A DNA stretch of 64,000 bases from NCBI RefSeq assembly GCF_900459225.1, contig NZ_UHFH01000003.1, positions 960,501 to 1,024,500 of the forward strand. The letters are read 5' to 3'. This document shows positions 4,428-21,907 of this stretch, in pieces; the stretch's first letter is position 1; the number at the start of each line of letters is the position of its first letter. The position numbers and the translations under genes are program-made. The stretch comes from Streptococcus dysgalactiae subsp. dysgalactiae. Its GTDB lineage: Bacteria; Bacillota; Bacilli; Lactobacillales; Streptococcaceae. The notes beneath the pieces were generated by a model. It was not told where the DNA came from and did no database searches. It saw only the letters and a list, made by a program, of their open reading frames with translations.

Positions 4428-4578
4428 TTCATTTTTTAAGGAATAAATTCATACCATAGGTCGTTATCCTAGTTAAAAAAGATATAACCAATAACTATAT
4501 CAAATCATTAGAAATATATAATTTACTCTTATAGTATTGTTTGGTAAACTATTTCAAAATTTATATGAGGTGATGTCT

Positions 4579-5698
4579 ATGGTTAAGAAGTATTTTGAGC
4601 ATGTTGGTTCCTTTTTACGTCCTGAAGAATTAAAGGTAGCGAGACAACAATTTGATAATGGTGATATTTCCAAGGAAGCATTAAAAGAAGTTGAAGATAA
4701 AGCTATTATCGAGTTGGTGGATAAACAGGTTGCGGCAGGTCTTGATAAAATTACTGATGGTGAATTTCGTCGTTCTTACTGGCATTTAGATAATTTTTGA
4801 GGATTTGATGGTGTATCACATGAGCATTTTGGTCGTGGTTACCTATTTCACGATGAAGAAACTCGAGATGATACCGCTGTTTTGCGTGGGAAATTAGGGT
4901 TTACAAAAGAAAAACATCCTTTTATCTCTCATTATGAGTTTTACAAGAAAATAGCTGATGATAAAGGAGTTGAAGCTAAAATTACGATTCCAGCTCCAGC
5001 ACAATTTTTGGCGGAATTGGAACGAGGAAAGAATGCTAATTCTATCGGTGATTTTTATCAAGATAGAGGCACATTTTTAACGGATATAGCGAGAGTGTAC
5101 AGGGAAGAAATTTTAGCACTTTACGAAGCTGGTGTCAGAACAATTCAACTGGACGATTGTACGTGGGGCATGTTAATTGATGAGGATTACTGGCAAACAA
5201 GACAAAGAGAAGGATTGAGTAAGCAAGACGTTATTGAAGATTACCCTTTTGTTAATAACAATGCTATCAAAGATCTACCAAATGATTTGACGATCAATAC
5301 ACATGTATGTAGAGGAAATTACCATTCAACTTATGCTTCTAAAGGGCCTTATAATGATGTTGCGGAAGCCTTCTTTGCTCGAGAAAATGCAGAGACTTAT
5401 TTCTTGGAATTTGATGATGAACGTTCTGGGGGGGGTTGAACCATTAAGCCATTTACCAGAGGAAAAAGTTGCAGTTCTAGGACTTATTACTTCAAAAAAT
5501 GGGAAATTGGAGGATAAAGAAGCTGTTATCAAACGAATCCAAGAAGCTAAGCAGTATCTGCCACTAAAAAACTTATGGCTATCAACGCAATGTGGATTTG
5601 CATCAACCGAAGAAGGTAATATCCTAACTGAAGAGGATCAATGGAAGAAACTAGCTTTAGTGAAAGAAATCATTGATGACGTTTGGAAAGAAGATTAA
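4579..5698 (+). pseudogene. Broken cobalamin-independent methionine synthase family gene (MetE C-domain type)
   Basis: The reading frame begins at the ATG at 4579 behind GAGGTG and encodes the one-domain MetE-like family (about 370 aa; motifs HVGSFLRP, DGEFRR, IQLDDCTWG, STQCGFAS). Two lesions break it. TGA at 4798-4800 stands where the context (YWHLDNF-stop-GFDG) calls for Trp, and a run of eight G at 5428-5435 shifts the frame, where seven G would restore SGGVEPLSHL. The protein would transfer methyl groups from a folate or other donor to homocysteine. It lies between the relaxase and an IS200 copy. It is read as a decaying cargo gene; slippage in the G run cannot rescue the nonsense codon. 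Confidence 0.85.
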
Positions 5699-5715
5699 GT
5701 CCACTTGAATCATGG

Positions 5716-6445
5716 CCACCCGTCCAACGGGTGGTTTGAACAGGGGCTATAAGCCCATATCACCAGCCAGCGTCTAAAGACGCTGGCTTTCACTTTGTTC
5801 AAGCCTAATCGCTCTTGACTCGTCACTTGCCTCTTAAAGAGGCGTTGGTATTACTTACCATCATCCCTAAAGGGATCTTCATATTCTTTTACGCTCAATT
5901 GATCTAAGGCTATATCATGTTTTTCTTGTTCTTGAATATATTTTTTGATAGTGGCTTCGTTCAGACCAACTGTGCTCACATAATATCCCTCAGCCCAAAA
6001 ATGGCGATTTCCAAACTTATATTTGAGATTGGCGTGTTTATCAAACATCATCAAGGCACTCTTACCTTTTAAGTAACCCATGAAACTTGAAACACTAATT
6101 CGTGGAGGAATACTTACTAACATGTGAACATGGTCTGGCATTAAATGACCTTCTATAATTTCAACTCCTTTATAACTACATAAGCGTCGAAGAATGTCTC
6201 CTAAACTACTTCTATATTGATTATAGATGATTTTTCGTCTATACTTAGGGCTAAACACTATGTGGTAGAACACATCCACTTTGTGTGTGATAAACTATGT
6301 GCCTTTTGTGTCATATTTTGCTCCTTTCGCTTTACATTAGGCTTGAACACCTTTATTGTATCGCGTTTGGAGTTTTTTTGGTATAACCTTCGATGCGCAC
6401 CCGCATAGCGGGTGGTTTATTTGTTTCGCACCTACGGAGCGAAAC
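5716..6445 (-). mobile_element. IS200/IS605-family insertion sequence (tnpA only)
   Basis: A minus-strand TnpA gene is flanked by subterminal hairpins instead of inverted repeats, as in IS200 elements. Right-end hairpins are at 5716-5734, 5744-5756, 5765-5788 and 5829-5843; left-end hairpins are at 6398-6414 and 6423-6445. Exact cleavage points cannot be set from one copy, so the borders are approximate. There is no tnpB. It sits between the broken methionine synthase gene and the fructose operon. Confidence 0.75.
5851..6314 (-). pseudogene. tnpA: IS200-type transposase TnpA, frameshifted near its start
   Basis: Y1 (HUH) transposase that moves single-stranded DNA. The HUH motif lies in GHLMPDHVHMLV and the catalytic Tyr in the segment AEGYYVSTVG. 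The natural start is the ATG at 6314-6312 behind AAAGGAG, giving MTQKAHSLSHTKWMC, but that frame then stops at TAG. The rest of the protein (FYHIVFSPKYRRK onward) is in the next frame, consistent with loss of one base near 6265-6270. A GTG at 6279 opens the downstream frame but has no good ribosome site, so the copy is probably inactive. Confidence 0.8.
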
Positions 6446-6473
6446 GGACTTAAAGTCACATAATAAAAATTTC

Positions 6474-6503
6474 AAAACACCTGTGCTGGAGCGTAGGTGT
6501 TTT
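6474..6503 (-). terminator. Intrinsic terminator of the rpiR-type regulator
   Basis: AAAACACCT (6474-6482) pairs with AGGTGTTTT (6495-6503). On the minus strand it follows the regulator stop, and the A/T flanks give the U-run. Confidence 0.65.
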
Positions 6504-6517
6504 AGAATGGTTAGCAT

Positions 6518-7273
6518 TTACGCTTTCATATTTACTGCTAGAGTATCTAAAAGTAGCCTCATAATAATATAAAGTGGCAGTCTTGAATGGACCTCGAAAT
6601 CAGGAAAATAGGTTAATTCTGTCTTAAACCCATATAATTGATAATCCGTTAGTTTTCCGAGATTTCCAGCTTGATTGGAACTAATTAAAACACTGGGTAT
6701 CAGTCGTTCTTGACAGTTGCTAGCAGCATTTTGTAAAGAGTGCGTCTCACCATTTAGTGAAATAAAGATGACACACGTTTTTGTATCTAAACGTTTGCTA
6801 ATGGTACGAATGATATTGGGATCGGTGTAGAGTTCAGTATAGATGCCTAATAGCAACAATTTAGTTTGCATTTCTGTTCCCAATAATTCTGAAAAACCAC
6901 GTGCAAAAATGATGACTTTTTCTGTATCTAGTAAGAGATCCACCACGTTATTGAGAGTTTTTAAATCTAGCATATTCAATGTTCGAGTAACTTCCTGGTA
7001 ACTCTTTAAAATTGAAATCTTAGTTTCGTCATTCAATAGAGGTTCTGTTAGGATATTTAATTCATCCTGAGCATTATTGGCCATACTGTGTTTAAAATCT
7101 ACAAAGCCACGATACCCCTTTTTTTGAAGCGTTCTTGTAATAGTAGCGGTAGAAACACTGATAATCTCTCCGACTTCGGATATATTGAGGTTGATAATTT
7201 CTTGAAAATGCTCATTTAAATAGTCCCAAGTGTAAGTCTCGGTTTGTGTTAGTTGTTTTTTTGATGTCGTCAT
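6518..7273 (-). CDS. RpiR/MurR-family transcriptional regulator (251 aa)
   Basis: It has an N-terminal RpiR helix-turn-helix (about residues 1-75, including SEVGEIISVSTATITRTLQKKGYRG) and a C-terminal SIS sugar-phosphate-binding domain (about 110-245, including VIIFARGFSELLG and VIFISLNGETHSL). The ATG at 7273 follows GGAG at the right distance; an in-frame start 27 bp upstream lacks a ribosome site. The gene is divergent from the fructose-type PTS operon. By context it senses a sugar phosphate, probably fructose 1-phosphate or similar, and controls that operon. Whether it activates or represses is not visible. Confidence 0.85.
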   Translation of the reverse strand: MTTSKKQLTQTETYTWDYLNEHFQEIINLNISEVGEIISVSTATITRTLQKKGYRGFVDFKHSMANNAQDELNILTEPLLNDETKISILKSYQEVTRTLNMLDLKTLNNVVDLLLDTEKVIIFARGFSELLGTEMQTKLLLLGIYTELYTDPNIIRTISKRLDTKTCVIFISLNGETHSLQNAASNCQERLIPSVLISSNQAGNLGKLTDYQLYGFKTELTYFPDFEVHSRLPLYIIMRLLLDTLAVNMKA

Positions 7274-7298
7274 ATATTCTCCGAAAGTAATGTAAAGC

Positions 7299-7325
7299 AT
7301 TTCAATATTGCTTGAATATCAGAAA
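7299..7325. promoter_or_regulatory. Candidate operator in the rpiR / fruK divergent region
   Basis: An imperfect inverted repeat, TTTCAATATT and AATATCAGAAA around GCTTG, lies upstream of both divergent genes. It is a plausible site for the RpiR-type regulator; assignment is by position only. Confidence 0.35.
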
Positions 7326-7386
7326 ACCCTTACAAGTTATTTGTGTTATTTTAATGATAATAAAAAAATAAAAGAGTGGTGATTTT

Positions 7387-8319
7387 ATGTCGGTCTATAC
7401 TTGCACAATGAATCTAGCGATAGATATGTTTATTCAGACAGAAGATATGGAGGATAAAAAAGTTAATAGGACCATCTATGATGAGTTACAAGCAAATGGT
7501 AAAGGGGTTAACGTATCAATTATTTTAAAAAAACTCGGTATTGATAGTACGCCTTTAGGATTTAAAGCTGGTTTTACAGGTGATTTTATCGAAGATGAGT
7601 TAAAAAAACAAGCTATTTTGTCAAATTTTGTCAAAGTAGATGGAACGACTAGGATAAATGTATTCACTCAGGTCATGTCAAAAAATCAGGAATTCAAATT
7701 GGTTAACCAGGGTCCAATCATATTAGAAAAATCTCAAGGGGAACTATTAAAGCAATTTGAATCCTTAAATCCAGATGACTTCTTGATTGTATCGGGAAGC
7801 TTGCCAAGAGGAATCTCTTCAGAGATCTTTTTAAAGATTGGTAAAATTTGTCAGAAAAAAGGGATAAATCTCATTTATGATATTAGCGATCCAAAACTAA
7901 TTGAGTGTTTATCTTTTAAACCATATTTAATTAAGCCAAACGACGAAGAAATATCGGAATGGTTTCACCTAGAAGATCCGTCATTGAATGATTTAATCGA
8001 AAAAGGAAAACTCCTTCAAGAAAAAGGGGCGAAAAATGTTCTCATTTCATTGGGAGGAAGTGGATGTCTTCTGATAAGCGATTCTGTCTATTTTGCAAAT
8101 GCACCAAGCGGAATAGTTGTTAATACAGCTTGTGCGGGAGATACACTTTTGGGAACATTTCTTGCCAATAAATTGAAGGGACACTCCGAAGTGGAATGTC
8201 TTGCTCAAGCAGTAGCAGCAGGCTCATCGACCGCCTTTCGACCAGGACTTACAGATTTTACTGATGTTGAATTATTAAAAAAACAAATCAAAATTAAGGA
8301 GATTACAGATGGTTTATAA
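7387..8319 (+). CDS. fruK: PfkB-family sugar-phosphate kinase, probably 1-phosphofructokinase (310 aa)
   Basis: It phosphorylates a ketohexose monophosphate to the bisphosphate in the cytoplasm. The PfkB N-terminal signature is NGKGVNVS (about residues 37-44), and the C-terminal ATP/anion-hole motif is ACAGDTLLG, whose Asp is the catalytic base. The length is typical of FruK/LacC kinases. It overlaps the EIIBC gene by 11 bp. With a fructose-class PTS alongside, fructose 1-phosphate is the likely substrate. A tagatose-6-phosphate kinase activity cannot be excluded by sequence alone, but a true lacC is present in the next operon. Confidence 0.8.
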   Translation: MSVYTCTMNLAIDMFIQTEDMEDKKVNRTIYDELQANGKGVNVSIILKKLGIDSTPLGFKAGFTGDFIEDELKKQAILSNFVKVDGTTRINVFTQVMSKNQEFKLVNQGPIILEKSQGELLKQFESLNPDDFLIVSGSLPRGISSEIFLKIGKICQKKGINLIYDISDPKLIECLSFKPYLIKPNDEEISEWFHLEDPSLNDLIEKGKLLQEKGAKNVLISLGGSGCLLISDSVYFANAPSGIVVNTACAGDTLLGTFLANKLKGHSEVECLAQAVAAGSSTAFRPGLTDFTDVELLKKQIKIKEITDGL

Positions 8320-9703
8320 AATTATAGCAGCAACAGGCTGTCCAACAGGTATTGCTCACACGTACATGGCTCAAGAAGCTCTTGAACAGGCTGCCAAAGA
8401 TAAGAATGTCTCAATCAAAGTTGAGACGCACGGACAAATTGGTGTGGAAAATCAACTGACACAAGAAGAAATTGCGAATGCGGATGCCGTTATTATAGCA
8501 GCAGATAAGGATGTTCAAGCAGAACGTTTTGCCGGTAAAAGAGTTATCAATGTATCTGTAGGAGAAGGTATCAAAAATGCTGAAAAACTAGTGCAAGATG
8601 CAATAGATGGCAAAGGTTTTATTCAAAAAGGTGATGTTAAAGAAGATGTTGTTGACGAAAAGCAAGATCATCGTGAACATTTCGGTCGTCAAATTTATAA
8701 ACATTTGATGAATGGTGTTTCTCACATGTTACCTTTTGTGGTAGCTGGTGGAGTGCTAGTCGCTGTATCCTTCTTGTTTGGTATTTTTTCTTTTGATACT
8801 GAAAGTGAACAATATAATTGGTTTGCGGCTATGCTAAAAAATGATATCGGTGGTGTTGCAATGGGAATGATGACGCCTGTTTTGGCGGCTTTTATTGCTG
8901 AATCCATTGCTAAACGACCAGGTTTTGTTGCCGGTCTAGTAGCTGGTCTCATGGCAGCGAATGGAGGATCTGGTTTCTTAGGAGGTATTTTAGGCGGTTT
9001 TGCAGCGGGTTACATCGTTCTTGGTTTAATTAAACTTCTTAAGGGTCTCCCTAAATCACTAGATGGTTTGAAAGCAATCTTTTTATATCCCGTTATAGGA
9101 GTTTTTCTAACCGGATGTTTTATGGCTCTGATAAATGCACCAATGGCTTGGGTTAATGAATCCATGATGTCATGGTTAGCCGGTTTTGAAAATGCTAATC
9201 CTCTCCTTCTTGGAATTATTATTGGTTGCATGAGTGCTTTTGATATGGGTGGACCTATCAATAAGGCTGCCTACGTAACAGGTACTGTTCTTCTTGGTCA
9301 AGGCAACACAACATTTATGGCAGGTGTATCAGCTGCTTGTATCGTACCCCCATTGACAACATTCTTTGCAACTTTGTTCTTCCGTAAATATTACAGCGAA
9401 GAAGATAAAAACGCTGGTCTTGCTAACTTGATTCTTGGGTCAACGCATATCACCGAAGGTGCTATTCCATTTGCTGCTAAAGATCCATTACGTAATCTCC
9501 CTATCTTAATGATTGGATCTTCAATTGGTGCTGTATTGACATACCTTTGGAAAGTTCAAGTCCCTGCACCACATGGTGGCTTCTTGGTATTGCCTGTTGT
9601 GACACATGCAGCTCTTTGGGTTTTGGCAATCTTTATTGGAGCGGTTATATCTGGTCTTCTTATGGGGTTTGTGCAAAAGATAAAAAGCGATAAAGAGGTT
9701 TAA
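8309..9703 (+). CDS. PTS fructose-class transporter EIIBC (464 aa)
   Basis: Membrane permease and phosphotransfer unit. The N-terminal IIB domain (about 1-100) has the phosphocysteine at Cys11 in ATGCPTGIAHTYMA. A linker follows, then a IIC domain of about ten membrane segments (about 130-460) with the fructose-type stretch GGPINKAAYVTG. There is no EIIA domain; that is the separate next gene. The reading frame and Cys are intact, so uptake function is plausible. Fructose is the family default; related sugars are possible. Confidence 0.88.
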   Translation: MVYKIIAATGCPTGIAHTYMAQEALEQAAKDKNVSIKVETHGQIGVENQLTQEEIANADAVIIAADKDVQAERFAGKRVINVSVGEGIKNAEKLVQDAIDGKGFIQKGDVKEDVVDEKQDHREHFGRQIYKHLMNGVSHMLPFVVAGGVLVAVSFLFGIFSFDTESEQYNWFAAMLKNDIGGVAMGMMTPVLAAFIAESIAKRPGFVAGLVAGLMAANGGSGFLGGILGGFAAGYIVLGLIKLLKGLPKSLDGLKAIFLYPVIGVFLTGCFMALINAPMAWVNESMMSWLAGFENANPLLLGIIIGCMSAFDMGGPINKAAYVTGTVLLGQGNTTFMAGVSAACIVPPLTTFFATLFFRKYYSEEDKNAGLANLILGSTHITEGAIPFAAKDPLRNLPILMIGSSIGAVLTYLWKVQVPAPHGGFLVLPVVTHAALWVLAIFIGAVISGLLMGFVQKIKSDKEV

Positions 9704-9705
9704 AA

Positions 9706-10152
9706 ATGATTGATAAAAATTTAATTCGTGTAGATGTAGACATGCCACTAAAAAAAGATGTGTTTGCTTATCTTGCTGGTCTTGTTGTTGAAAATGGTTA
9801 TGCAGATGATACTGATCAAGTCTATAAAAGTTTGTTATCTCGTGAAGAAGAAGGAACAACAGGCATGATGGATGGATTTGCTATTCCACATGCTAAAAGT
9901 CAAGCGGTCATAAAACCAGGTATTACTGTTTTAAAACTAAAAAATGGAGTTGAGTGGGAGTCTATGGACGGTAAACTCATTGATTCTGTCATAGCCTTAT
10001 TTATTCCAGAGACAGAAGTTGGTTCAACTCATCTGACTTATCTCTCAAAAATTGCTAGAATTCTTATGAAAAATGACTTTAAAAATTATTTTAAAGAAGC
10101 ACATGAGATCGAAGAAATTGAGACAGTCTTTAATAAGTACTTAGAGCTTTAG
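9706..10152 (+). CDS. PTS fructose/mannitol-class EIIA (148 aa)
   Basis: Cytoplasmic phosphocarrier that passes phosphate from HPr to the IIB domain encoded just upstream. The active-site His62 lies in GFAIPHAKSQAV, the standard fructose/mannitol EIIA motif, and the length is normal. It begins 2 bp after the EIIBC stop and ends the operon before a strong hairpin. Confidence 0.88.
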   Translation: MIDKNLIRVDVDMPLKKDVFAYLAGLVVENGYADDTDQVYKSLLSREEEGTTGMMDGFAIPHAKSQAVIKPGITVLKLKNGVEWESMDGKLIDSVIALFIPETEVGSTHLTYLSKIARILMKNDFKNYFKEAHEIEEIETVFNKYLEL

Positions 10153-10175
10153 ACATGTATTAAACGCTATAAAAC

Positions 10176-10254
10176 CCCTCTGCAAATAGACTGATGACGT
10201 CAAGAATTAAAATCAAAGTTTAATTCTTGATGTCCATCGTCACAGAGGGATTTT
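10176..10254 (+). terminator. Long two-level hairpin terminator after the fructose operon
   Basis: The outer stem CCCTCTG (10176-10182) / CAGAGGG (10243-10249) is followed by ATTTTT. The inner stem TCAAGAATTAAA (10200-10211) / TTTAATTCTTGA (10219-10230) is perfect over 12 bp. It shares the words GACTGATG and ACGTCAAGA with the hairpin after potD. Confidence 0.75.
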
Positions 10255-10309
10255 TAATGTAAATAGTAATAATTTTTTGAATAGCCTTTAAGTATTTACC
10301 TTAATGATG

Positions 10310-10500
10310 TTACAAAGCCTCATCTCTATGTTGTCCAGTTCGAATTCTAATAGCATCTTCAATTGGAATAATAAAAATTTTACTATCTCCAATTTCTCCA
10401 GTTTGAACTGCCGAAATGATAGCTTCAACTACAGTATCAACACGAGAATCACTCACGATTATTACTACTTTGACTTTTGCTAAGAATGTTCGTTATTACG
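10310..10500 (-). pseudogene. Remnant of a PII nitrogen-regulatory protein gene (C-terminal part)
   Basis: On the minus strand the codons read LAKVKVVIIVSDSRVD, then VVEAIISAVQTGEIGDSKIF and IIPIEDAIRIRTGQHRDEAL to a TAA. This is the C-terminal portion of GlnB/GlnK-type PII proteins, including the GDGKIF-like and EDAIRIRTG segments. The part carrying the start and T-loop is missing, with a TAA upstream in frame, so the gene is dead. It lies alone between the two sugar operons and has no amtB neighbour. It marks a deletion or insertion boundary between the two cargo blocks. Confidence 0.8.
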
Positions 10501-10607
10501 TTAGAAAAAACTAACATAAATAAGGTGTACTAAAAAATTCAATAGAAAAAGACACTCCTTAATAATAAATTAAGAAGTATCTAGATTATCCTTTTTGAAA
10601 GCTGCTA

Positions 10608-11381
10608 TTACTTATCAGCAATAATTATTTTAGAAAATTTCTCGTACTTTTCTATCATTTCAGTTGTCACATTTTTATCAGTCACAATTAAATCCATTCG
10701 TTCTAGCTGGTAGAAGTTATAGAAATCATAACTTTCAAACTTGGTACTATCAACTAGAAGGATTTTCTCAACAGCATTATTCAAGGCAACTCTTTGAACC
10801 TCTCCTTCGAGGTCACTGTAGGTAGCAATCGAATTATTATAAACAGCATTTGCACTGACAAAAGCTTTTGAAAATGTTAATGATTCTAGGTTATTAATAG
10901 CAATAGACCCAACAAAAGCACCAGTAATTTCACGACACTCACCACCAATTAAAATCAAGTCAATAGTAGTGCTCGGATGTAAAATCAGAAAAACAGGAAG
11001 GCTATTTGTAATAACTCTTATATTTCTATTTTTCAATTCGACAGCTAGATGCTCTAAAGTTGTTCCTGGACCTATAAAGACAGTTTCACCATCTTTAATA
11101 ATATCGTTAGCTCTTTGTGCGATTTGTTTTTTTTCGTTAGTTTGTAAGACTTTCTTTTCGGTGTGCGTTTTCTCGTGGCCTTCGTCATTTGTTGAAGGGT
11201 TATCTAAGTATTGAGCTCCACCATGAGTCCTGATAAGTAATCCTTCATCTGCTAATGTATCAAGATCTCGCCTAGCGGTCATATCTGAGACGTTCATTTC
11301 ATCGATAATATCTTTTACTTTTATAAAACCGTCAACTTTTAAGATATCGAGAATTTTTTCATGACGTTCTTTCTTCTTCAT
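10608..11381 (-). CDS. lacR: Lactose operon repressor LacR, DeoR family (257 aa)
   Basis: The DeoR-type winged helix at residues 1-60 (KVKDIIDEMNVSDMTARRDLDTLADEGLLIRTHGGA) is followed by a sugar-phosphate sensor domain (VFIGPGTTLEHLA, LILIGGE). In streptococci and lactococci LacR represses lac genes and is released by tagatose 6-phosphate. The gene is divergent from lacA, with operator-like palindromes in the 448 bp between them. The start ATG at 11381 follows an AGGAGGTAAG-type ribosome site. Confidence 0.9.
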   Translation of the reverse strand: MKKKERHEKILDILKVDGFIKVKDIIDEMNVSDMTARRDLDTLADEGLLIRTHGGAQYLDNPSTNDEGHEKTHTEKKVLQTNEKKQIAQRANDIIKDGETVFIGPGTTLEHLAVELKNRNIRVITNSLPVFLILHPSTTIDLILIGGECREITGAFVGSIAINNLESLTFSKAFVSANAVYNNSIATYSDLEGEVQRVALNNAVEKILLVDSTKFESYDFYNFYQLERMDLIVTDKNVTTEMIEKYEKFSKIIIADK

Positions 11382-11637
11382 TCTTACCTCCTATCAGTTT
11401 CTTATAATATAACTATTAAAGGTATCATAACATAATAACAACCGAAAAATCAAACGAAACAAACAAAAATATTTAAAAACAAAGACAAACAAAACATAAA
11501 AATGTTTTATATGAAACGCTTACTAAAAAATAAGAAATAATGATTTAATACTGATTAATATAATAGTTATTGTTGTTAAAGGTTTATGGAAGTTGTTAAA
11601 ACACATAAAACATCATTTTCGAGACATAAAATCAAAC

Positions 11638-11663
11638 AAAATAAACATATATATGTTTATTTT
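11638..11663. repeat. 26-bp perfect palindrome, upstream LacR operator candidate
   Basis: AAAATAAACATAT is followed directly by its exact complement. It lies 23 bp upstream of the -35 box and contains an ACATA core like the proximal palindrome. A pair of operators would allow looping repression by LacR. Confidence 0.55.
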
Positions 11664-11671
11664 TAAAAAAA

Positions 11672-11701
11672 CCAACATAAAAGTGTTGACTTTTATGTTG
11701 G
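11672..11701. promoter_or_regulatory. 30-bp palindromic operator overlapping the lac -35 box
   Basis: The 12-bp arms CCAACATAAAAG and CTTTTATGTTGG are exact complements around TGTTGA. The -35 TTGACT (11686-11691) lies inside, so a bound repressor would block RNA polymerase. LacR is the obvious candidate. Confidence 0.7.
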
Positions 11702-11714
11702 TTAGGTGTATTAT
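11686..11714 (+). promoter_or_regulatory. Promoter of the lacABCDFEG operon
   Basis: -35 TTGACT (11686-11691), 17-bp spacer, -10 TATTAT (11709-11714). The leader to lacA is about 108 nt. Confidence 0.75.
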
Positions 11715-11729
11715 AAGGTCATAGAAATA

Positions 11730-11744
11730 ATGTAAGCGTTATTT
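11730..11744 (+). promoter_or_regulatory. Candidate cre site (CcpA) in the lac leader
   Basis: ATGTAAGCGTTATTT matches the cre consensus WTGNAANCGNWNNCW except at position 14. It lies just downstream of the -10 box, where CcpA binding would give a roadblock under glucose. Confidence 0.55.
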
Positions 11745-11829
11745 CAAAAGATTTTGCAAATCGTTAATTAACTATCTACGTAGGTTTTCCACATTTACTT
11801 ATTCTAAATCAAATCATAGGAGAAATAAA

Positions 11830-12258
11830 ATGGCAATTATTATCGGTGCTGACAAAGCAGGTACAGAACTTAAAGATGTTATCAAAGATTACCTTAAAGA
11901 AGGTAAATACGAAGTCATTGATGTCAGTGAAAATGAAGTTCGTGACTTCGTTGATACAACTCTCGCTGTTGCAAAAAAAGTTAATGCATCCGAAGATAAC
12001 TTGGGTATTGTAATTGATGCGTATGGTGTTGGTTCTTTCATGGTGGCTACTAAAATTAAAGGAATGGTGGCAGCTGAAGTATCAGATGAGCGCTCAGCAT
12101 ACATGACAAGAGGTCACAATAACTCTCGAATCATTACGCTTGGTTCTGAAATTAGTGCACCAGGAATTGCAAAAAACATTGTCAAAGGCTTTGTTGAAGG
12201 TGAATATGATGGTGGACGTCATCAAGTTCGTGTTGACATGCTTAATAAAATGTGCTAA
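11830..12258 (+). CDS. lacA: Galactose-6-phosphate isomerase subunit LacA (142 aa)
   Basis: With LacB it converts galactose 6-phosphate to tagatose 6-phosphate. It belongs to the RpiB/LacAB fold: [19 protein letters not shown] at the N-terminus and [14 protein letters not shown] in the second half. The length of 142 aa is the family norm. It is the first gene of the operon, behind AGGAG. LacA lacks the GTGVG loop present in LacB, as usual for this non-identical pair. Confidence 0.92.
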
Positions 12259-12292
12259 TTGATTGAAATAGGTTAAAACAAGGAGAACAAAA

Positions 12293-12808
12293 ATGAAAAT
12301 TGCTGTAGGTTGTGACCATATTGTTACTTATGAAAAAATCGCTGTTGTTGATTATTTGAAATCACAAGGTCATGAAATCATTGATTGCGGTACATACGAT
12401 AATGTCCGCACACACTATCCAATTTTTGGTAAAAAAGTTGGTGAAGCAGTAGCAAGTGGTGAAGCAGAACTAGGTGTTGTTATCTGTGGTACTGGTGTTG
12501 GTATTACAAATGCCGTAAATAAAGTTCCTGGAATTCGTTCAGCACTCGTCAGAGACATGACATCTGCTATCTACTCAAAAGAAGAGCTTAACGCAAACGT
12601 TATTGGTTTTGGTGGAAAAATTATCGGTGGTTTGCTGATGAATGATATTATCGATGCTTTCTTAGCTGCTGAATACAAACCAACTGAAGAAAATAAAAAT
12701 TTGATTGAAAAAATTGATAGCTTACAACATGCTAGTCAGGATCAAAATAACCCACACTTCTTTGATGAATTCTTAGAAAAATGGGATCGTGGTGAATATC
12801 ACGACTAA
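12293..12808 (+). CDS. lacB: Galactose-6-phosphate isomerase subunit LacB (171 aa)
   Basis: Partner of LacA in the isomerase. It shows the RpiB-type N-terminus ([14 protein letters not shown]) and the phosphate-binding loop [21 protein letters not shown]. The 171-aa length is standard. It follows lacA by 34 bp with AAGGAGAA ahead of the ATG. Confidence 0.93.
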
Positions 12809-12855
12809 TATTTGAATATACTAATATAGGGATAAATATAGAAAAAGGAGCTATT

Positions 12856-13785
12856 GTGATTTTAACAGTTACTTTAAATCCAGCTATTGATGTCTCCTAC
12901 CCTTTGGATGAGCTAAAATTCGATACCGTAAATCGAGTTGTAGATGTTACAAAGACACCTGGTGGTAAAGGCTTGAATGTTTCCCGAGTTCTTAATGAAT
13001 TCGGTGAAACAGTCAAAGCTACTGGTTGTATAGGTGGAGAAAGCGGTGATTTTATCATTAATCATCTTCCCGATTCGATTTTAAGTCGCTTCTATAAAAT
13101 TTCAGGCGATACCAGAACTTGTATAGCCATATTACACGAAGGGAATCAAACTGAGATTTTAGAAAAAGGACCGATGTTAAGTGTAGATGAAATTGATGGA
13201 TTTACTAATCATTTTAAATATTTATTGAATGATGTTGACGTAGTGACAATGTCAGGTAGTCTTCCTGCGGGAATGCCAGATGATTACTATCAGAAATTGA
13301 TTACTATTTCCAACCTTAATGGAAAGAAAACGGTTCTGGATTGTTCTGGAAATGCTCTAGAAGCAGTATTGAAAGGTGATAGTAAACCAACAGTTATCAA
13401 ACCTAATCTTGAAGAACTTTCTCAACTTCTAGGTAAAGAAATGACAAATGATTTTGAATCCTTAAAAGAAGTCTTACAAGATGAACTATTTGAAGGAATT
13501 GAATGGATAATCGTTTCTCTTGGTGCTAATGGTGTATTTGCAAAACACAAGGATACGTTTTATAAAGTTGACATTCCTAAAATCGAAATTGTAAGCGCTG
13601 TAGGTTCTGGTGATTCTACAGTAGCAGGTATCGCTTCGGGTTTAGCGAATGATGAAGATGATCGAGCTTTATTAACAAAATCAAATGTCTTAGGTATGTT
13701 AAATGCTCAAGAAAAAACAACTGGGCATGTTAACATGGAAAATTACGATAAGTTATATCAATCTATTAAAGTCAAAGAGGTATAA
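12856..13785 (+). CDS. lacC: Tagatose-6-phosphate kinase LacC (309 aa)
   Basis: PfkB-family kinase that makes tagatose 1,6-bisphosphate. Motifs are [12 protein letters not shown] near residue 36 and [10 protein letters not shown] near 250, containing the catalytic Asp. The start is GTG at 12856 behind AAAGGAG. It is flanked by lacB and lacD, which fixes the substrate. It resembles the upstream fruK-type kinase in length and fold but has a different motif context. Confidence 0.93.
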
Positions 13786-13788
13786 AAA

Positions 13789-14772
13789 ATGACAATTACT
13801 TTAACTGAAAACAAACGTAAAAGCATGGAAAAACTAAGTGTAGATGGTGTTATATCTGCCTTAGCCTTCGACCAACGTGGAGCTCTCAAACGTATGATGG
13901 CCCAACATCAAACAGAAGAACCAACAGTAGAACAAATTGAAGAGCTTAAAAGTTTAGTTTCTGAAGAACTTACACCATTTTCATCATCAATTTTACTTGA
14001 TCCTGAATATGGCTTGCCAGCAAGTCGTGTTCGTTCAGAAGAAGCAGGCTTGTTGTTGGCATATGAAAAAACAGGATACGATGCAACAACAACTAGTCGC
14101 TTACCTGATTGTTTAGATGTTTGGTCTGCGAAACGTATTAAAGAAGCTGGTGCAGAAGCAGTTAAATTCCTTCTTTACTATGATGTAGATGGAGATAAAG
14201 ATGTCAATGAGCAGAAAAAAGCTTACATTGAACGTATTGGTTCTGAATGCCGAGCAGAAGATATTCCATTCTACCTAGAAATTCTAACTTATGACGAGAA
14301 AATCTCTGACAATGCTAGTCCTGAGTTTGCAAAAGTAAAAGCTCATAAAGTTAACGAAGCAATGAAAGTATTCTCAGAGGAACGCTTTGGTGTTGACGTG
14401 TTGAAAGTTGAAGTTCCAGTAAACATGAAATTTGTAGAAGGCTTTGCAGAAGGTGAAGTTCTCTTTACAAAAGAAGAAGCAGCTCAAGCTTTCCGTGATC
14501 AAGAAGCTTCTACTGATTTACCATACATTTACTTGAGTGCAGGTGTTTCAGCCAAGTTGTTCCAAGATACTTTGGAATTTGCAGCAGAATCAGGCGCAAA
14601 ATTCAATGGTGTATTGTGTGGACGTGCTACTTGGGCAGGATCTGTAAAAGTCTATATTGAAGAAGGACCTAAAGCAGCTCGTGAATGGTTGCGTACAGAA
14701 GGTTTCAAAAATATTGACGAATTAAACAAAGTACTAGATAAAACTGCAAGTCCTTGGACTGAAAAAATTTAA
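13789..14772 (+). CDS. lacD: Tagatose-1,6-bisphosphate aldolase LacD (327 aa)
   Basis: Class I aldolase that splits tagatose 1,6-bisphosphate into DHAP and glyceraldehyde 3-phosphate. The Schiff-base Lys is about residue 206 in VLKVEVPVN. Other family marks are [14 protein letters not shown] and the C-terminal [11 protein letters not shown]. The full family length is present, 3 bp after lacC. In S. pyogenes a LacD paralogue has a second regulatory job; nothing here suggests that for this copy. Confidence 0.94.
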
Positions 14773-14795
14773 CATTATTTTCGGAGGAAACTACA

Positions 14796-15113
14796 ATGAA
14801 TAGAGAAGAAACTACTCTTTTAGGTTTTGAAATCGTAGCCTATGCTGGTGATGCCCGCTCTAAATTCTTAGAAGCTCTTAAAGCAGCGCAAGAAGGGAAT
14901 TATGCTAAAGCAGAAGAATTAATCGCAGCAGGTAGTGAATGCTTGAACGATGCTCATAATGCTCAAACAAGTCTACTACAAAAAGAAGCTGCGGGAGAAG
15001 ATTTGGCATATAGTGTTACTCTTATGCATGGTCAAGATCATTTAATGACTACCATTTTATTGCAAGATTTAATGAAACACATGATTGAACTTTATAAGAG
15101 AGGAGCAAAATAA
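14796..15113 (+). CDS. lacF: PTS lactose-specific EIIA, LacF (105 aa)
   Basis: Trimeric cytoplasmic phosphocarrier for lactose uptake. The phosphorylated His78 lies in [10 protein letters not shown], with the Asp81 that binds the metal. The ATG follows GGAGGA, and the stop overlaps the lacE start (TAATG). Confidence 0.94.
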
Positions 15114-16810
15114 TGAATGGATTAATTGCTCAGATTGAGAAAGGGAAACCTTTCTTCGAGAAAATTTCTCGAAATATCTATCTTCGTGCTATTCGTGATG
15201 GTTTTATCGCTGGTATGCCAGTCATCTTGTTCTCAAGTATCTTTATCTTGATTGCCTATGTTCCAAATGCATGGGGCTTCCATTGGAGCAAAGATATTGA
15301 GAATCTTTTGATGACACCATACAACTACTCAATGGGTATTTTAGGTTTGTTTGTGGCTGGTACGACTGCGAAAACATTAACCGATTCAATGAACCGCTCA
15401 TTGCCTAGCACGAACCAAATCAACTTTATTTCAACCATGCTTGCTGCTATTGTAGGTTTTCTACTAATGGCGGCTAATCCAGCAAAAGACGGTGGTTTCT
15501 TAACTGGATTTATGGGAACAAAAGGTTTGTTGACAGCCTTCATCGCAGCATTTATTACCGTAAATGTCTATAAAGTCTGTGTGAAAAACAATGTCACTAT
15601 TCGCATGCCTGAAGAGGTTCCACCAAATATCTCTCAAGTATTTAAGGATTTGATTCCATTCACGTTATCAGTTGTACTTCTTTATGTGATTGAATTGATT
15701 GTTCATACTACTTTAGGCGTTAACGTTGCAGAATCAATTGGTAAACTTCTTGCACCATTGTTCCAAGCAGCAGATGGCTATGTTGGAATCACTATTATCT
15801 TCGGTGCATTTGCTTTCTTCTGGTTTGTTGGTATCCACGGTCCTTCTATTGTTGAACCAGCCATTGCAGCGATTACTTACGCAAATGCTGAAACCAACCT
15901 TCAATTACTTCAAGCTGGTGAACATGCGGACAAGATTTTGACTTCAGGGACTCAAATGTTCATCGTTACCATGGGTGGTACTGGTGCAACTCTCGTCGTT
16001 CCATTCATGTTCATGTGGTTAACAAAATCAAAACGTAACAAAGCCATTGGACGTGCATCTGTTGTTCCAACATTCTTCGGAGTTAACGAACCAATCTTGT
16101 TCGGTGCTCCACTTGTTTTGAACCCAATTTTCTTTATTCCATTTATTTTGGCACCAATTGTCAATGTATGGATTTTCAAATTCTTTATTGATACACTTGG
16201 AATGAACAGTTTTACTGCAAACTTGCCTTGGACAACACCAGCTCCATTAGGTCTTATTCTTGGGACAAACTTCCAAGTGCTAGCATTCATTTTGGCAGCT
16301 TTGTTAATCGTTGTTGATGTCATTATCTACTACCCATTCTTGAAAGTATACGATGAGCAAATTCTTGCTGAAGAAGCAGCAGGTACGAATTCATCAGATG
16401 CCCTTAAAGAAAAAGTTGCAGCAAACTTTGACACTAAGAAAGCTGATGCTATTCTTGAAAAATCAGCAGCTAAAGAAACTAAAGAAATCACTGATCAAAC
16501 TAATGTTCTCGTTCTTTGTGCCGGTGGTGGTACAAGTGGTTTATTAGCAAATGCTTTGAATAAAGCAGCAAAAGAATATGGTGCACCTGTCACTGCAGCA
16601 GCAGGAAGTTATGGTGCTCACCGTGAGATTTTACCACAATATCAAGTTGTTATCCTTGCACCTCAAGTAGCTTCTAACTATGAAGATATTAAAGTGGAAA
16701 CTGATAAACTTGATATTAAATTAGCTAAAACAGAAGGGGCTCAATACATCAAATTGACTCGCGATGGTCAAGGTGCATTGGACTTCGTTAAAGAACAGAT
16801 AGAAAAATAA
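15113..16810 (+). CDS. lacE: PTS lactose-specific EIICB, LacE (565 aa)
   Basis: Lactose permease of the PTS. The IIC domain comes first (about 1-430, many membrane helices, with the family stretch [10 protein letters not shown]). A linker follows, then a C-terminal IIB domain with phosphocysteine Cys469 in [15 protein letters not shown]. Length and domain order match lactococcal and streptococcal LacE. The product inside the cell is lactose 6-phosphate, the substrate of LacG. Confidence 0.94.
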
Positions 16811-16811
16811 T

Positions 16812-16860
16812 ATTTCACTAGGGAAGGTTGGGGGTACTCAATCTTCCTTTATAGTGAAAT
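16812..16860 (+). terminator. Intercistronic stem-loop between lacE and lacG
   Basis: ATTTCACTA (16812-16820) pairs with TAGTGAAAT (16852-16860), with a further internal GGAAG/CTTCC stem. There is no U-run after it, so it is more likely a processing or partial attenuation site than a full terminator. Confidence 0.6.
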
Positions 16861-16870
16861 GAAAATTTAG

Positions 16871-18289
<1,419 letters not shown>

Positions 18290-18313
18290 TCCTTACTATG
18301 AAAGTGTGTACCT

Positions 18314-18592
18314 ATGTTTAAAACATTAAAAAGAGTGACAGACGGTGTTTTAACTTCTGCCTATGAAAAAGTTTATATTGTTAATTTTGAAAAATGTCCA
18401 TATATTCCATACATCGATCAAGATGTTTTAAAATCTTTAGGGAAATGGTATGTCTCTACTGGAGGAGAATGGATTTGTCATTCAGATTTAGAATTAGATG
18501 AATTCAAAATATTGTTTAACAATCTCTTAGAAGATTCTTTAAAAGGGAATGTTAGATATGAAATGGACTATATGCCTTTTCAGCAATCATAG
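18314..18592 (+). CDS. Unrecognised 92-aa protein in the lac operon
   Basis: It lies 24 bp after lacG and 22 bp before the epimerase, on the same strand, so it is probably cotranscribed. The protein is soluble, mildly acidic and aromatic-rich, with no signal peptide or membrane segment. It contains two Cys and a tryptophan-containing segment (LGKWYVSTGGEWICHSD). No family is recognised. Upstream there is no strong ribosome site, so translation may be weak or coupled. A small regulatory or accessory role in lactose use is possible but not shown. Confidence 0.6.
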   Translation: MFKTLKRVTDGVLTSAYEKVYIVNFEKCPYIPYIDQDVLKSLGKWYVSTGGEWICHSDLELDEFKILFNNLLEDSLKGNVRYEMDYMPFQQS

Positions 18593-18614
18593 AGTATAAT
18601 TGGGGAATCAACTA

Positions 18615-19502
18615 ATGAAATTAAAAAATGACGAATTAACGGTTGAATTTAAACCAGAGGGGGCGACCATCAGTTCGATTAAAGATCGAGATGGTGTGGA
18701 ATATCTTTGGCAAGGCAATCCAGAGTACTGGAGTGGTCAGGCACCAGTTCTCTTTCCTATCTGTGGTAGTCTAAGAAATGATGAAGCCACTTTTAAGGTT
18801 GGTGAAAAAACAATTTCTGGCTCAATGCCTCGCCATGGGATTGTCAGAAAACGCACTTTTGATTTAGTAAAACATACCGAAAATGAGGTACAGTTTCGTA
18901 TTTTGTCTGACGATGAGATGTTAAAGCAATACCCTTTTCCATTTGAACTCCAATTAACCTATTGCTTGGACGGTAATAAGTTGGAAACAGAATATGCAGT
19001 TCGATATTTAGGTGAGTTAGATGCGATGCCATTTTTTATTGGAGGCCATCCAGGATTTAATTGTCCATTATTAGAGGATGAAGCATTTGATGACTATTAC
19101 CTAGAATTCGAATTGGAAGAAGATTGCACGATTCCAAAAAGTTTCCCAGATACGGGACTTCTTGATTTTTCCAAACGTCAACCAATGCTATCTAAAACAA
19201 GAATTTTAGAATTGAATTATGAACTGTTTCAACATGATGCGTTGACGTTTGATAACCTTAAATCTCGGAAGGTTGCTTTGAAATCCAAAAACCATCAAAA
19301 AGGATTAAAAGTATCATTCGAAGATTTTCCTTTCTTAGTTGTTTGGACAACAACCAACAAAGGGCCATTTATTGCTCTGGAACCGTGGAGTGGCTTATCT
19401 ACCTCTTTGACAGAAACGGACAACTTTATTGATAAAACCCATGTCACTTATGTTGAAAAAGGCGAAGTATCTCGCAAAGCATTTACAGTTGAAATTTGTT
19501 AA
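18615..19502 (+). CDS. lacX: Aldose 1-epimerase family protein, LacX-like (295 aa)
   Basis: Galactose mutarotase-type fold: RHGIVRKRTFDL, FFIGGHPGFNCPL (with the substrate-binding His) and the C-terminal EPWSGLSTS. The ATG at 18615 follows GGGGA; a TTG five codons upstream would overlap the ribosome site. LacX ends lac operons in lactococci and several streptococci. It probably interconverts anomers of galactose or of a phosphorylated sugar made by LacG; the substrate is not proven. Confidence 0.85.
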   Translation: MKLKNDELTVEFKPEGATISSIKDRDGVEYLWQGNPEYWSGQAPVLFPICGSLRNDEATFKVGEKTISGSMPRHGIVRKRTFDLVKHTENEVQFRILSDDEMLKQYPFPFELQLTYCLDGNKLETEYAVRYLGELDAMPFFIGGHPGFNCPLLEDEAFDDYYLEFELEEDCTIPKSFPDTGLLDFSKRQPMLSKTRILELNYELFQHDALTFDNLKSRKVALKSKNHQKGLKVSFEDFPFLVVWTTTNKGPFIALEPWSGLSTSLTETDNFIDKTHVTYVEKGEVSRKAFTVEIC

Positions 19503-19566
19503 TGAATTTGGCAAATAGCTTATTAATACTTACTTTAATATTCTGACTTATATCATGAAATTATGA

Positions 19567-19593
19567 TTTATTGATTTAAAATTTATCAATAAA
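19567..19593. repeat. Inverted repeat after the lac operon
   Basis: TTTATTGAT and ATCAATAAA are exact complements separated by 9 bases. There is no T-run, so it may be a weak 3' stabilising hairpin or a binding site. Confidence 0.4.
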
Positions 19594-19622
19594 CTTCAGT
19601 AATATTGAGGTAATATATCAGC

Positions 19623-19637
19623 TGTCATATTATGACA
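19623..19637. promoter_or_regulatory. 15-bp palindrome upstream of the XRE regulator
   Basis: TGTCATA-T-TATGACA is perfectly symmetric and lies 54 bp before the XRE start. It is a likely autoregulatory operator. Confidence 0.5.
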
Positions 19638-19690
19638 ATTTCCAAGTTTTCTTCTAAAAGTATTCTATACTTTTCATAGGAGAAAGCTAT

Positions 19691-19915
19691 ATGTACCAAC
19701 GTATAAGGGACTTGAGAGAAGACAATGACTTCACTCAGAAATTTGTAGCTGAAAAACTATCGTTCTCTTCCACAAATTATGCAAAGATTGAGAGAGGTGA
19801 GGTAGTTCTTACAGCTGAAATACTTATAAAACTCTCTGCACTCTATAACGTTAGTACGGATTATATTCTTGGACTATCAGACTGTCCTCAAAGAATTAAA
19901 CAAAAAATAAAATAG
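19691..19915 (+). CDS. XRE-family helix-turn-helix regulator (74 aa)
   Basis: It is a single Cro/C1-type HTH domain (IRDLREDNDFTQKFVAEKLSFSSTNYAKIERGE, then LIKLSALYNVSTDYILGLSD) with no partner domain. The ATG is preceded by AGGAG. Small regulators of this kind next to integrase modules usually control excision or element genes, which fits its place between the cargo and the int module. Confidence 0.82.
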   Translation: MYQRIRDLREDNDFTQKFVAEKLSFSSTNYAKIERGEVVLTAEILIKLSALYNVSTDYILGLSDCPQRIKQKIK

Positions 19916-20184
19916 TCTCTCCTTGATTTGTTCATTGACAATTGAATAAACCGAGGTGGGACTTTCTTATTTGTTGAGCAATTTAGTGAGATACGCCGTG
20001 ATAGGAGCGAAAATTATTAGCTATAAAATAGAGTGGTTCTCTATCTGCCATGACCACAAATAAGGACAATGATACTTCTGAACGTTCAGGCTGCCATCGT
20101 AAAAGGACAGCGGGTGAGATGCCCATGAATGAATTAACCAATCATACCTACTGAGGAAATAATTTTTTTGACAGGAGTGGAGGT

Positions 20185-20433
20185 ATGAAAACAGTAACAT
20201 ATAAAAACTTGATGAATATTGGTTTTCCTGAACATACGGCAAGAAACATCATTAGAGAAGCAAAAAGAATAGCAGTAAAAAAGTTTGAAGAAGCTCGCAA
20301 AGTTGACCATAATGCGGTACAATTAAGTAAATCGCCCTTTGACAATAGAAGACTTGGTATTGCTCCTAAAGATATAGTAGAAGAGTTAATCGGAATTTCA
20401 CTCTCTGAAGACAATTTAGAAAGTGAGAATTAA
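20185..20433 (+). CDS. DUF3173 family protein, putative excision factor (82 aa)
   Basis: Small protein with an HTH-like start (TYKNLMNIGFPEHTARNIIREAKRIAVKKF), typical of DUF3173 proteins that precede tyrosine integrases in streptococcal integrative elements and are presumed to act like Xis. The ATG follows GGAGTGGAGG. It ends 2 bp before the integrase start, so the two are coupled. Confidence 0.8.
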   Translation: MKTVTYKNLMNIGFPEHTARNIIREAKRIAVKKFEEARKVDHNAVQLSKSPFDNRRLGIAPKDIVEELIGISLSEDNLESEN

Positions 20434-20435
20434 AG

Positions 20436-21635
20436 ATGGCTACAAAAAATCAAAAAAAGTATAAAGGTGTTTATTGTGATAAGAATGGCAAGATATTTTA
20501 TCAGGCTGATCTTGGTGTTGATCCAGTAACAGGTAAACGAGTTCAAAAGAAAGCTAGAAAGAATCAGTATGGTAAGCCATTTACTACAATGAAAGAAGCG
20601 TATGATGAACTGGTTCGAATTAGGTATGAGTTTAATAATAACCTTAGTATTGAAAATTATAATATAACATTTGAAAGTTATATGAATACCATTTATCTAA
20701 GAGCTTATAAGCAAAAGGTACAAGCTGTAACTTATAAAACTGCTTTGCCACATCATAAGTTATTTATTCAGTATTTTGGCTCTAAACCTTTAAAAGGCAT
20801 AACAGCTAGAGATTGTGAATCTTTTAGATTGCACATCATTGAGCATTATTCTGAAAATTATGCAAAGAATTTATGGTCACGATTTAAGGCTTGTATGGGA
20901 TATGCTGAGAGATTAGGATATATTTCATCTATGCCATGCAAGGCATTAGATAACCCTAGAGGCAAGCACCCTGATACTCCATTTTGGACTTATATTGAGT
21001 TTCAGAACTTTATTAAATCATTTGATTTACAAGATTACGAAGATTTACAAAGATTCACAACTATTTGGTTATATTATATGACAGGTGTTCGTGTAAGTGA
21101 AGGTTTATCGTTATGGTGGGAAGATGTCGATTTTGAACACAAATTCTTGAAAGTTCATACAACCTTAGAGAAGGATGAAAATGGAAATTGGTATCGTAAA
21201 GACCAAACCAAAACACCTGCTGGAGAACGCCTCATTGAACTGGATGATGTGACAATATCAGTATTGGAAAATTGGCGAAAAAATCAAGTTGCCAATCAAG
21301 ATAAAGATTTCATTATTTCACGATTTGGTGAACCGTTTTGTAAATCAACGATCTGTCGAATTATTAAGAGAAAAGCTAAAGAAGTTGGAGTACCAGTGAT
21401 AACAGGAAAAGGATTGCGGCACAGTCATGCTTCCTATCTCATAAATGTTTTGCAGAAGGACATTTTATATGTGGCAAGACGAATGGGACATGCTGATAAG
21501 TCTACAACTTTGAATACCTACAGTCACTGGTTTAATGCATTAGATAAAACAGTATCAGAAGAAATAACCCAAAATGTAATTAGTGCAGGACTAGATTCCA
21601 TTTTATGCCAAAATCCCTGCCAAACTCATAATTAA
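20436..21635 (+). CDS. int: Tyrosine recombinase/integrase (399 aa)
   Basis: Site-specific recombinase for insertion and excision of the element. The N-terminal arm-binding region (YKGVYCDKNGKIFYQADLG) is followed by a core-binding helical domain (about 75-180) and a catalytic domain with Arg in TGVRVSEGLSLWW, the HxxR box in GLRHSHASYL and the Tyr in KSTTLNTYSHW. All catalytic residues and the full length are present. It is the last element gene before core gene dacA, so the right attachment site should lie just after 21635. Confidence 0.92.
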   Translation: MATKNQKKYKGVYCDKNGKIFYQADLGVDPVTGKRVQKKARKNQYGKPFTTMKEAYDELVRIRYEFNNNLSIENYNITFESYMNTIYLRAYKQKVQAVTYKTALPHHKLFIQYFGSKPLKGITARDCESFRLHIIEHYSENYAKNLWSRFKACMGYAERLGYISSMPCKALDNPRGKHPDTPFWTYIEFQNFIKSFDLQDYEDLQRFTTIWLYYMTGVRVSEGLSLWWEDVDFEHKFLKVHTTLEKDENGNWYRKDQTKTPAGERLIELDDVTISVLENWRKNQVANQDKDFIISRFGEPFCKSTICRIIKRKAKEVGVPVITGKGLRHSHASYLINVLQKDILYVARRMGHADKSTTLNTYSHWFNALDKTVSEEITQNVISAGLDSILCQNPCQTHN

Positions 21636-21765
21636 GGCTAAAAAGCCTATTATACCGCCCACAGAGTAACGTGTGTTATTGTTACTCTTAAATAATAGAG
21701 TCCTTGCTTTAGTAGCTTAAATATGCTGATTAACCCGCTATTTTTAAAAATAGCGGGTTTTTTGA
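21635..21765. other. Putative right end of the integrative element
   Basis: Between int and dacA are a small hairpin (21635-21648), an inverted repeat AGAGTAAC / GTTACTCT (21663-21670 and 21681-21688) and a strong terminator (21732-21763). The inverted repeat is a possible integrase core or arm site. Without the left end the direct repeats of attL/attR cannot be compared, and no tRNA gene is visible here. Confidence 0.45.
21732..21763 (+). terminator. Strong intrinsic terminator at the element/core boundary
   Basis: The perfect 14-bp stem AACCCGCTATTTTT / AAAAATAGCGGGTT is followed by TTTT. It isolates the integrase transcript from dacA. Confidence 0.8.
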
Positions 21766-21907
21766 ATATCATTTTTGATAGGTTTTAATAAGCCGTTATT
21801 ATCGATTGTTATGATAAGTCTAGTCAATAATGTTAAGCTTTAAGAGTAATTGAGATTGTTGTGTTAAGTGGTATTTCACTTATAGTTAATTTTCTGAGAA
21901 TTTTTGC

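Follow-up and report, generated by a model that had tools for sequence, protein, structure and literature searches.

Passages of PMC3541175 and PMC3890567 place the lactose operon Lac.2 in integrative and conjugative elements (ICEs) of several species, and a passage of PMC8405622 reports a Tn5252 ICE with a lactose operon in all of the Streptococcus dysgalactiae subsp. dysgalactiae isolates studied there. The version named Lac.2-2 is described in part of PMC3890567 as having lacR reversed and no lacT, with a group D that includes S. dysgalactiae subsp. dysgalactiae. In bovine isolates, according to a passage of PMC9343751, lacR adjoins a PII gene and a fructose operon, with >98% identity to S. 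agalactiae, and passages of PMC11341095 and PMC13398308 present Lac.2 as a marker of bovine adaptation in group B streptococci that is common to other mastitis species. Here we analyzed a 64,000-nucleotide window (C3:960501-1024500) of a 2.15-Mb S. dysgalactiae subsp. dysgalactiae genome, in which a fructose (fru) and a lactose (lac) operon lie between a relaxase gene and an integrase (int) module; positions are those of the window, and negative ones lie left of its start. Two small contigs of this genome match plasmids of S. dysgalactiae FDAARGOS_1157 along their entire length (100.0% and 99.6%); the first of them, C1, is matched just as fully by an S. pyogenes plasmid (99.7%). A sequence-only reading had taken the two operons for cargo of an integrase/relaxase element. 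They do lie within both ends of such an element, between the end of the relaxase gene and the int module, and very probably form the int-proximal cargo of an ICE that is 60.6 kb long, belongs to the ICESa2603/Tn5252 kind and is inserted in the 3' end of rplL. The lac operon itself is a hybrid, its main crossover falling within lacG.

To define the ends, we screened the window and the 60 kb preceding it for direct repeats of the right junction. A 12-bp core repeat, ACTCTTAAATAA, has copies starting at C3:921592 and C3:982184, at a spacing of 60,592 bp. The left core sits at the rplL end, at -38908 (base 1092 of locus L003), so that the left end, which the sequence-only reading had proposed to seek upstream of position 1, is now located and includes the operons; the right core is at 21684-21695. 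Two 14-bp repeats of the right junction, at 39489 and 59225, were rejected, both being right of the element, and the 12-bp match at -38908 was accepted as it fell on the rplL end. The right core forms part of attR, GTTACTCTTAAATAA (21681-21695, plus strand), which is the reverse complement of the published ICESa2603 attachment (att) site and identical to the 15-bp att of ICESa2603-family ICEs given in a passage of PMC4735348. attL differs from the 15-bp att at two positions and is the version listed for ICESdy12394-1. The stretch from 6518 to 21635, which holds the fru, lac and int genes, is only about the right-hand quarter of the element. No tRNA that could serve as a target is present within the window.

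Right of attR, positions 21696-21766 (plus strand) carry the displaced rplL 3' region and a terminator (terminator pattern; stem 21732-21759). We consider this sequence the native rplL 3' region because, among 147 genomes of the genus (the own one included in the 147; handles beginning with G denote members of this set), at least 41 align unbroken to a query joining the two flanks, for at least 60 bases beyond the core, and have this region continuous with rplL. The count was made by hand, twice, from rows running from query base <=7 to >=373, and 41 is a lower bound. In agreement with the earlier statement that core genes begin with dacA right after int, the first gene past int encodes a D-alanyl-D-alanine carboxypeptidase (Peptidase_S11). 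In G044, the nearest genome in rplL (99%), the same place is taken by a decayed ICE with regulator and transporter genes, followed by the same carboxypeptidase gene. In G071, the stretch from rplL to a deacetylase gene holds apparent insertion sequence (IS) genes, and no int, mob or sugar genes among frames of at least 90 codons.

The genes between attL and the relaxase encode RepA_N, C5 cytosine methylase, VirD4, VirB6-like, VirB4-type ATPase, CHAP/lysozyme, AbiE, SNF2, Toprim, epsilon-zeta and Hachiman proteins, as well as a large adhesin-like protein (named by eye). At the left of the window follow a small protein in a Tn5252 orf10-like position (1841-2200, plus strand; weakly NikA-like, Pfam PF21983 E=3.8e-4, below cut-off), MobC (2210-2575, plus strand; Pfam PF05713 E=3.9e-15) and a conjugative relaxase of the SAG1250 family (2562-4427, plus strand; NCBIfam NF040665, 1074 bits vs a cut-off of 575), whose residues 1-605 cover 1-606 of the 606 model positions. 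Beyond the relaxase lies a cargo slot, at about 4378-19622, at both edges of which the relatives diverge (blastn). On its left edge, relaxase matches end at 4378, 4378 and 4363 in G143, S. moroccensis (G026) and G051, and cargo matches begin at 4312 in S. agalactiae ATCC 13813 (G012) and at 4377 in G078. On its right edge, matches to the int module begin at 19621-19623 in G078, ATCC 13813, G139, S. cuniculi WM131 (G010) and G143, and later in G044 (19666) and G051 (19929). The slot content varies (names by eye): regulator and transporter genes in G143, an adhesin-like gene and acetolactate genes in G051, regulators and transporters plus a lac operon in S. moroccensis, a kinase gene plus a lac operon in G139, and likewise other cargo in G044.

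How far this evidence carries can be judged by weighing it against other accounts of the same genes. The sequence-only reading had spoken of a mobilizable island, i.e., an integrative and mobilizable element (IME) using the transfer machine of another element, and the window alone indeed displays only mob genes, cargo and an integration module. Judged by gene content, however, the element is an ICE and not an IME, because besides its relaxase it has its own VirD4 coupling protein, VirB4-type ATPase, VirB6-like protein and cell-wall hydrolase genes, encoded between attL and the relaxase; an IME is accordingly very improbable. It is harder still to credit that the operons are ordinary chromosomal genes that ICE ends adjoin by chance: G044 and G072 do have very similar lac operons (LacE 99%) that are not near such an integrase, and hence the lac operon is not tied to ICEs, but here the operons lie between both cores, in a slot whose edges are common to ICEs with other cargo. 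More deserving of consideration, if still unlikely, is a domesticated, immobile element, fixed in the subspecies and kept for lactose use. It would fit with PMC8405622, where, as stated in the passage cited above, every S. dysgalactiae subsp. dysgalactiae isolate has an ICE of this sort, and with the intron in the SNF2 gene and the broken metE-like gene. Against it, the integrase, relaxase and main type IV secretion system (T4SS) genes are full frames, and another species has cargo that is 94-99% identical over most of its length.

Several observations weigh against a mobile ICE in rplL, the reading we prefer. The earlier suggestion that genomes lacking the insert be compared bore fruit in part: unfilled rplL sites and other cargo at the same place were found, but in none of the genomes examined is rplL directly beside the carboxypeptidase gene, the gap being 10.5 kb in G044 (the decayed ICE) and 35.6 kb of other genes in G091. 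The related block of ATCC 13813 is off rplL, its cargo at 271-285 kb and its rplL at 926 kb. Within the element, the VirB6/TrbL profile scores 24.9 against a cut-off of 25.9, and the SNF2 gene is split by a group II intron with a maturase (L002 9521-11806), which may splice or not. Moreover, excision, the circle and transfer are read from gene families, while the ends, genes, slot and mosaic are seen in the sequence.

Stepwise identity revealed three ancestries across the cargo and the int end. Positions 4378-17779 are of the S. agalactiae ATCC 13813 type, mostly at 94-99%; between 17821 and ~20018, 150-base steps share 94.7-100% identity with the S. moroccensis ICE, and identity to G139 and G078 drops to 51-90%; the stretch between 20150 and ~21500 is of a third ICE type, with 97-100% identity to G139 and G143, which falls to 91-92% thereafter. 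The main crossover thus falls within lacG, between 17779 and 17821, and a second breakpoint precedes the DUF3173 gene, between 20018 and 20149. When the lacG sites that distinguish ATCC 13813 from S. moroccensis were sorted by whether the window agrees with the former, the latter or neither, the counts were 174:13:6 to the left of 17800 and 0:73:0 to its right. In trees of lacG (12 rows), too, the window joins the Lac.2 group for the left part (99/99) and S. moroccensis for the right part (96/99), and the LacG frame is intact across the crossover. The 72-base lacG junction has no exact match in IMG/VR, a literature search for the lacG breakpoint turned up nothing relevant, and the mosaic is not described in the accounts examined. 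Since the tree of PMC3890567, as presented in the passages concerned, joins the lac genes with lacX excluded, a crossover inside lacG would be invisible in it.

The division into ancestries is not free of exceptions, and these count against it. Left of the crossover, the steps at 7700 and 9500 are only 87% identical to ATCC 13813, and some steps are closer to G078 or G072 than to ATCC 13813. In addition, of the 13 S. moroccensis-type sites on this side of the main crossover, 9 cluster in one small patch at 17401-17455. As to direction, the site patterns alone carry none, and the own sequence is 94.7-100% identical to that of S. moroccensis in 150-base steps over 17750-20149; it is therefore conceivable that the mosaic arose in reverse, with an S. 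dysgalactiae-type ICE donating the right end to the S. moroccensis ICE. We regard this as improbable, as the window lacG is the outlier among Lac.2 copies right of the crossover: the copies of ATCC 13813, G078, G044, G072 and S. thoraltensis are 90.7-97.2% identical to one another over the last 400 columns, and only 79-88% to the window (four full 100-base steps).

The hybrid lac operon would most likely have come from homologous recombination between two ICEs carrying different lac operons in the same slot. Extending this, we tentatively suggest that allelic lac operons are maintained at the int-proximal place in this ICE lineage and that the lac genes there provide homology for swapping right ends; this is a conjecture to which we give less than even credence. 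If true, cargo drives the shuffling of integration modules, besides being carried, which would help explain why the fru-lac block is found on this ICE, with another conjugation module in G078 and, in ATCC 13813, on a reduced ICE off rplL. The ends, slot edges and breakpoints show a possible route of the lactose trait, as int-proximal cargo of rplL ICEs that is swapped by recombination, and lac history becomes traceable via breakpoints, with a caution against treating lacA-G as a single locus in trees.

We next turn to how the cargo is distributed among the 147 genomes, noting that draft contigs possibly hide further linkages. The lac operon alone is common, since LacE is found at E<=1e-100 in 109/147. 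The fructose-type phosphotransferase system (PTS) protein EIIBC and LacE are at most 7 kb apart in three genomes only (own, ATCC 13813 and G078); in G136 an 80% EIIBC and an 80% LacE are ~13 kb apart, in reversed order. LacE lies <4 kb from an integrase at least 96% like that of the window, on the same strand, in four (own, G078, S. moroccensis and G139), and G105 has a 36% integrase ~6.1 kb from LacE. Because a block of a metE-like gene, fru and lac is common as a unit to the own genome, ATCC 13813 and G078, the fru-lac pairing, and with it the block as a unit, probably predates the insertion here. The "stepwise assembly" put forward by the sequence-only reading is supported, though in a different form: the block is one shared unit, and the stitching that can be seen consists of the lacG crossover, the breakpoint before DUF3173 and an IS200-type insertion.

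The two genomes sharing the block differ in their settings. ATCC 13813 has the PII stretch, which is missing from G078, and in it the ICE left end (equivalent to -38690 to -36073) is followed by cargo matching from 4312 onward and by the first part of the int module. Past the equivalent of 20158 its sequence reads N, which hides any integrase there. Directly before this ICE left end lies another lacABC set, a divergent one (L119, G012:C1:264910-266760). In G078, rplL is at 356 kb and an att after int at 429 kb, and the ICE, of ~72.5 kb, fits the rplL site; the final bases of the same relaxase gene stand in front of its cargo, with an apparent IS at the junction, and the genes before the cargo belong to a different conjugation module (VirB4 37%, VirD4 36%). 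Of note, a lac operon of S. cuniculi WM131 (G010:C69:25401-31854) is not in the usual slot but ~15 kb past an rplL-type integrase, and S. thoraltensis DSM 12221 has a fragment resembling the own ICE's left end after a Lac.2-type operon (L035 5505-14789).

Outside these genomes, the cargo matches 223 of 72,556 plasmid records, 214 of the 223 being from Enterococcus or Lactococcus; none of the 72,556 matches over 80% of the cargo query, and the 20 rows listed match over 33% of it. Among 50,697 phage records, five match, covering 1-6% of the query, and the fru EIIBC has three loci in IMG/VR.

The cargo begins with a metE-family pseudogene with two disruptions (4537-5698, plus strand; frame reading, with Meth_synt_2 on the first fragment only, E=6.6e-6), which is one open frame in ATCC 13813 and G078. 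The IS200-type insertion follows (about 5711-6461; transposase 5851-6279, minus strand), absent at this place from the same two genomes. An element with the sequence of window 5704-6464 was seen in the stretches of G071 and G091 (87-90% in longer pieces), near rplL in both; in G091 it also precedes another gene, and the cargo of ATCC 13813 and G078 is without it. The fru operon comprises an RpiR-type regulator (6518-7300, minus strand; Pfam HTH_6 and SIS), fruK for 1-phosphofructokinase (7387-8319; NCBIfam TIGR03828, 318 bits vs 292), EIIBC (8309-9703; TIGR01427 and TIGR00829 above cut-off) and fructose-type PTS EIIA (9706-10152; TIGR00848 above cut-off), the last three on the plus strand. The PII gene is dead, as had been recognized: only the C-terminal part of this GlnB-type gene is left (10313-10465, minus strand; frame reading, family named by eye). 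Its region is 98-99% identical at the DNA level in ATCC 13813, where it was translated on the plus strand only.

A DeoR-type repressor gene, lacR (10608-11381, minus strand; Pfam DeoRC and HTH_DeoR), diverges from the lac operon; no lacR-specific profile scored above cut-off for its protein. On the plus strand follow lacA, lacB, lacC and lacD (11830-14772), lacF (EIIA) and lacE (EIICB) (14796-16810), the mosaic lacG for 6-phospho-beta-galactosidase (16883-18289; TIGR01233, 920 bits vs 561, its mosaicism read from site patterns and trees), a DUF3884 protein gene (18314-18592) and the aldose 1-epimerase-like lacX (18600-19502), the others all named by profile matches. This arrangement, lacABCDFEGX with lacR on the opposite strand and without lacT, matches the Lac.2-2 definition. 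Apart from PII, the genes that the sequence-only reading named are full frames about where it had placed them, with the expected family matches.

The int module, entirely on the plus strand, consists of an XRE-type regulator (19691-19915), a DUF3173 protein in the excisionase position (20185-20433) and the tyrosine integrase (20436-21635), all three by profile match. In the integrase, the motifs TGVRVSE, LRHSH and MGHADKSTTLNTY begin at residues 216, 327 and 350. Matches to it at E<=1e-60 were found in 36/147 genomes. Between xre and DUF3173 lies a pemK RNA motif (20066-20128; Rfam RF02913, 46.6 bits vs 34.8), which may control int expression. It is present in 20/20 integrase loci L005-L024 and in 3/10 loci L025-L034, with two copies in L026; in its fold, 5 of the 16 pairs are changed on both sides, too few independent changes to press. 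A literature search for pemK RNA together with an integrase found nothing. We also came across CP138365.1 (L131), an 86.6-kb S. agalactiae record, circular and labeled "plasmid", whose int module has 93.3% DNA identity and adjoins a different conjugation gene set; it may be an excised composite ICE.

Other accessory genes were observed on the ICE. Directly left of the mob genes is a complete-looking Hachiman pair, whose HamB helicase is cut by the window's left edge: its C-terminal part lies at 3-1412 (plus strand; PADLOC HamB E=3.9e-166), and HamA (PADLOC E=1.4e-104) and the rest of HamB in L002 17523-19999. The ICE further carries toxin-antitoxin pairs of the AbiE type (L003 14762-16224) and epsilon-zeta (L002 16287-17539).

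LacFE import lactose as its phosphate and LacG splits it, LacAB, LacC and LacD form the tagatose-6-phosphate route, and LacR represses; FruK, EIIBC and EIIA serve fructose import and phosphorylation. In the own genome, LacE and LacG have no other close match at E<=1e-10, the next being at 28% for LacE and 35% (partial) for LacG, unrelated beta-galactosidases not having been searched for, and another fructose-type PTS frame of 652 codons is 44-47% alike in two pieces (E<=1e-10). With the only close LacE and LacG on the ICE and a second fructose PTS present, the ICE likely enables lactose use and would at most supplement fructose use. Going by gene families, Int and the DUF3173 protein would excise a circle, the relaxase, MobC and T4SS genes would transfer it to a recipient, and it would reinsert in rplL with the rplL end restored. 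There, the lac operon would import and degrade lactose via the PTS and the tagatose-6-phosphate route under LacR control, and the fru operon would act as a second fructose-type PTS under its RpiR regulator.

Compared with the ICESa2603 family as described in passages of PMC4735348, the element has the same rplL target, 15-bp att (TTATTTAAGAGTAAC), SAG1250-type relaxase, MobC and T4SS, as well as the SNF2, primase (here a Toprim protein), methylase and replication genes and the cargo hotspots. The cargo here, in contrast, is for sugar uptake, and the placement follows from target, att, relaxase and gene content. ICE_Sag018883_rplL and ICE_SagILRI005_rplL (passages of PMC4701971) have the same rplL recombination module, a lactose module and a Tn5252-type relaxase, which in ICE_SagILRI005_rplL is a pseudogene alongside a swapped conjugation module, as G078 seems to have; the fructose operon seen here is not mentioned for either in those passages. 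The gene neighborhood is the fru-PII-lacR-lac block that a passage of PMC9343751 describes in bovine S. dysgalactiae and in S. agalactiae NCTC8184, but here identity is mostly 94-99% to ATCC 13813 up to lacG, PII is a remnant, and the block lies inside an rplL ICE. With the Lac.2 Tn5252-type ICEs in the passages of PMC8405622, PMC3541175 and PMC3890567 it shares the ICE type and a lactose operon with lacR reversed and no lacT, while the att ends and the mosaic given here do not appear in those passages. Taken together, Lac.2 on a Tn5252-type ICE of bovine S. dysgalactiae, with PII and fructose genes adjoining, is already known in substance, and the detail added here is the exact ends and the lacG crossover that makes the lac operon a hybrid.

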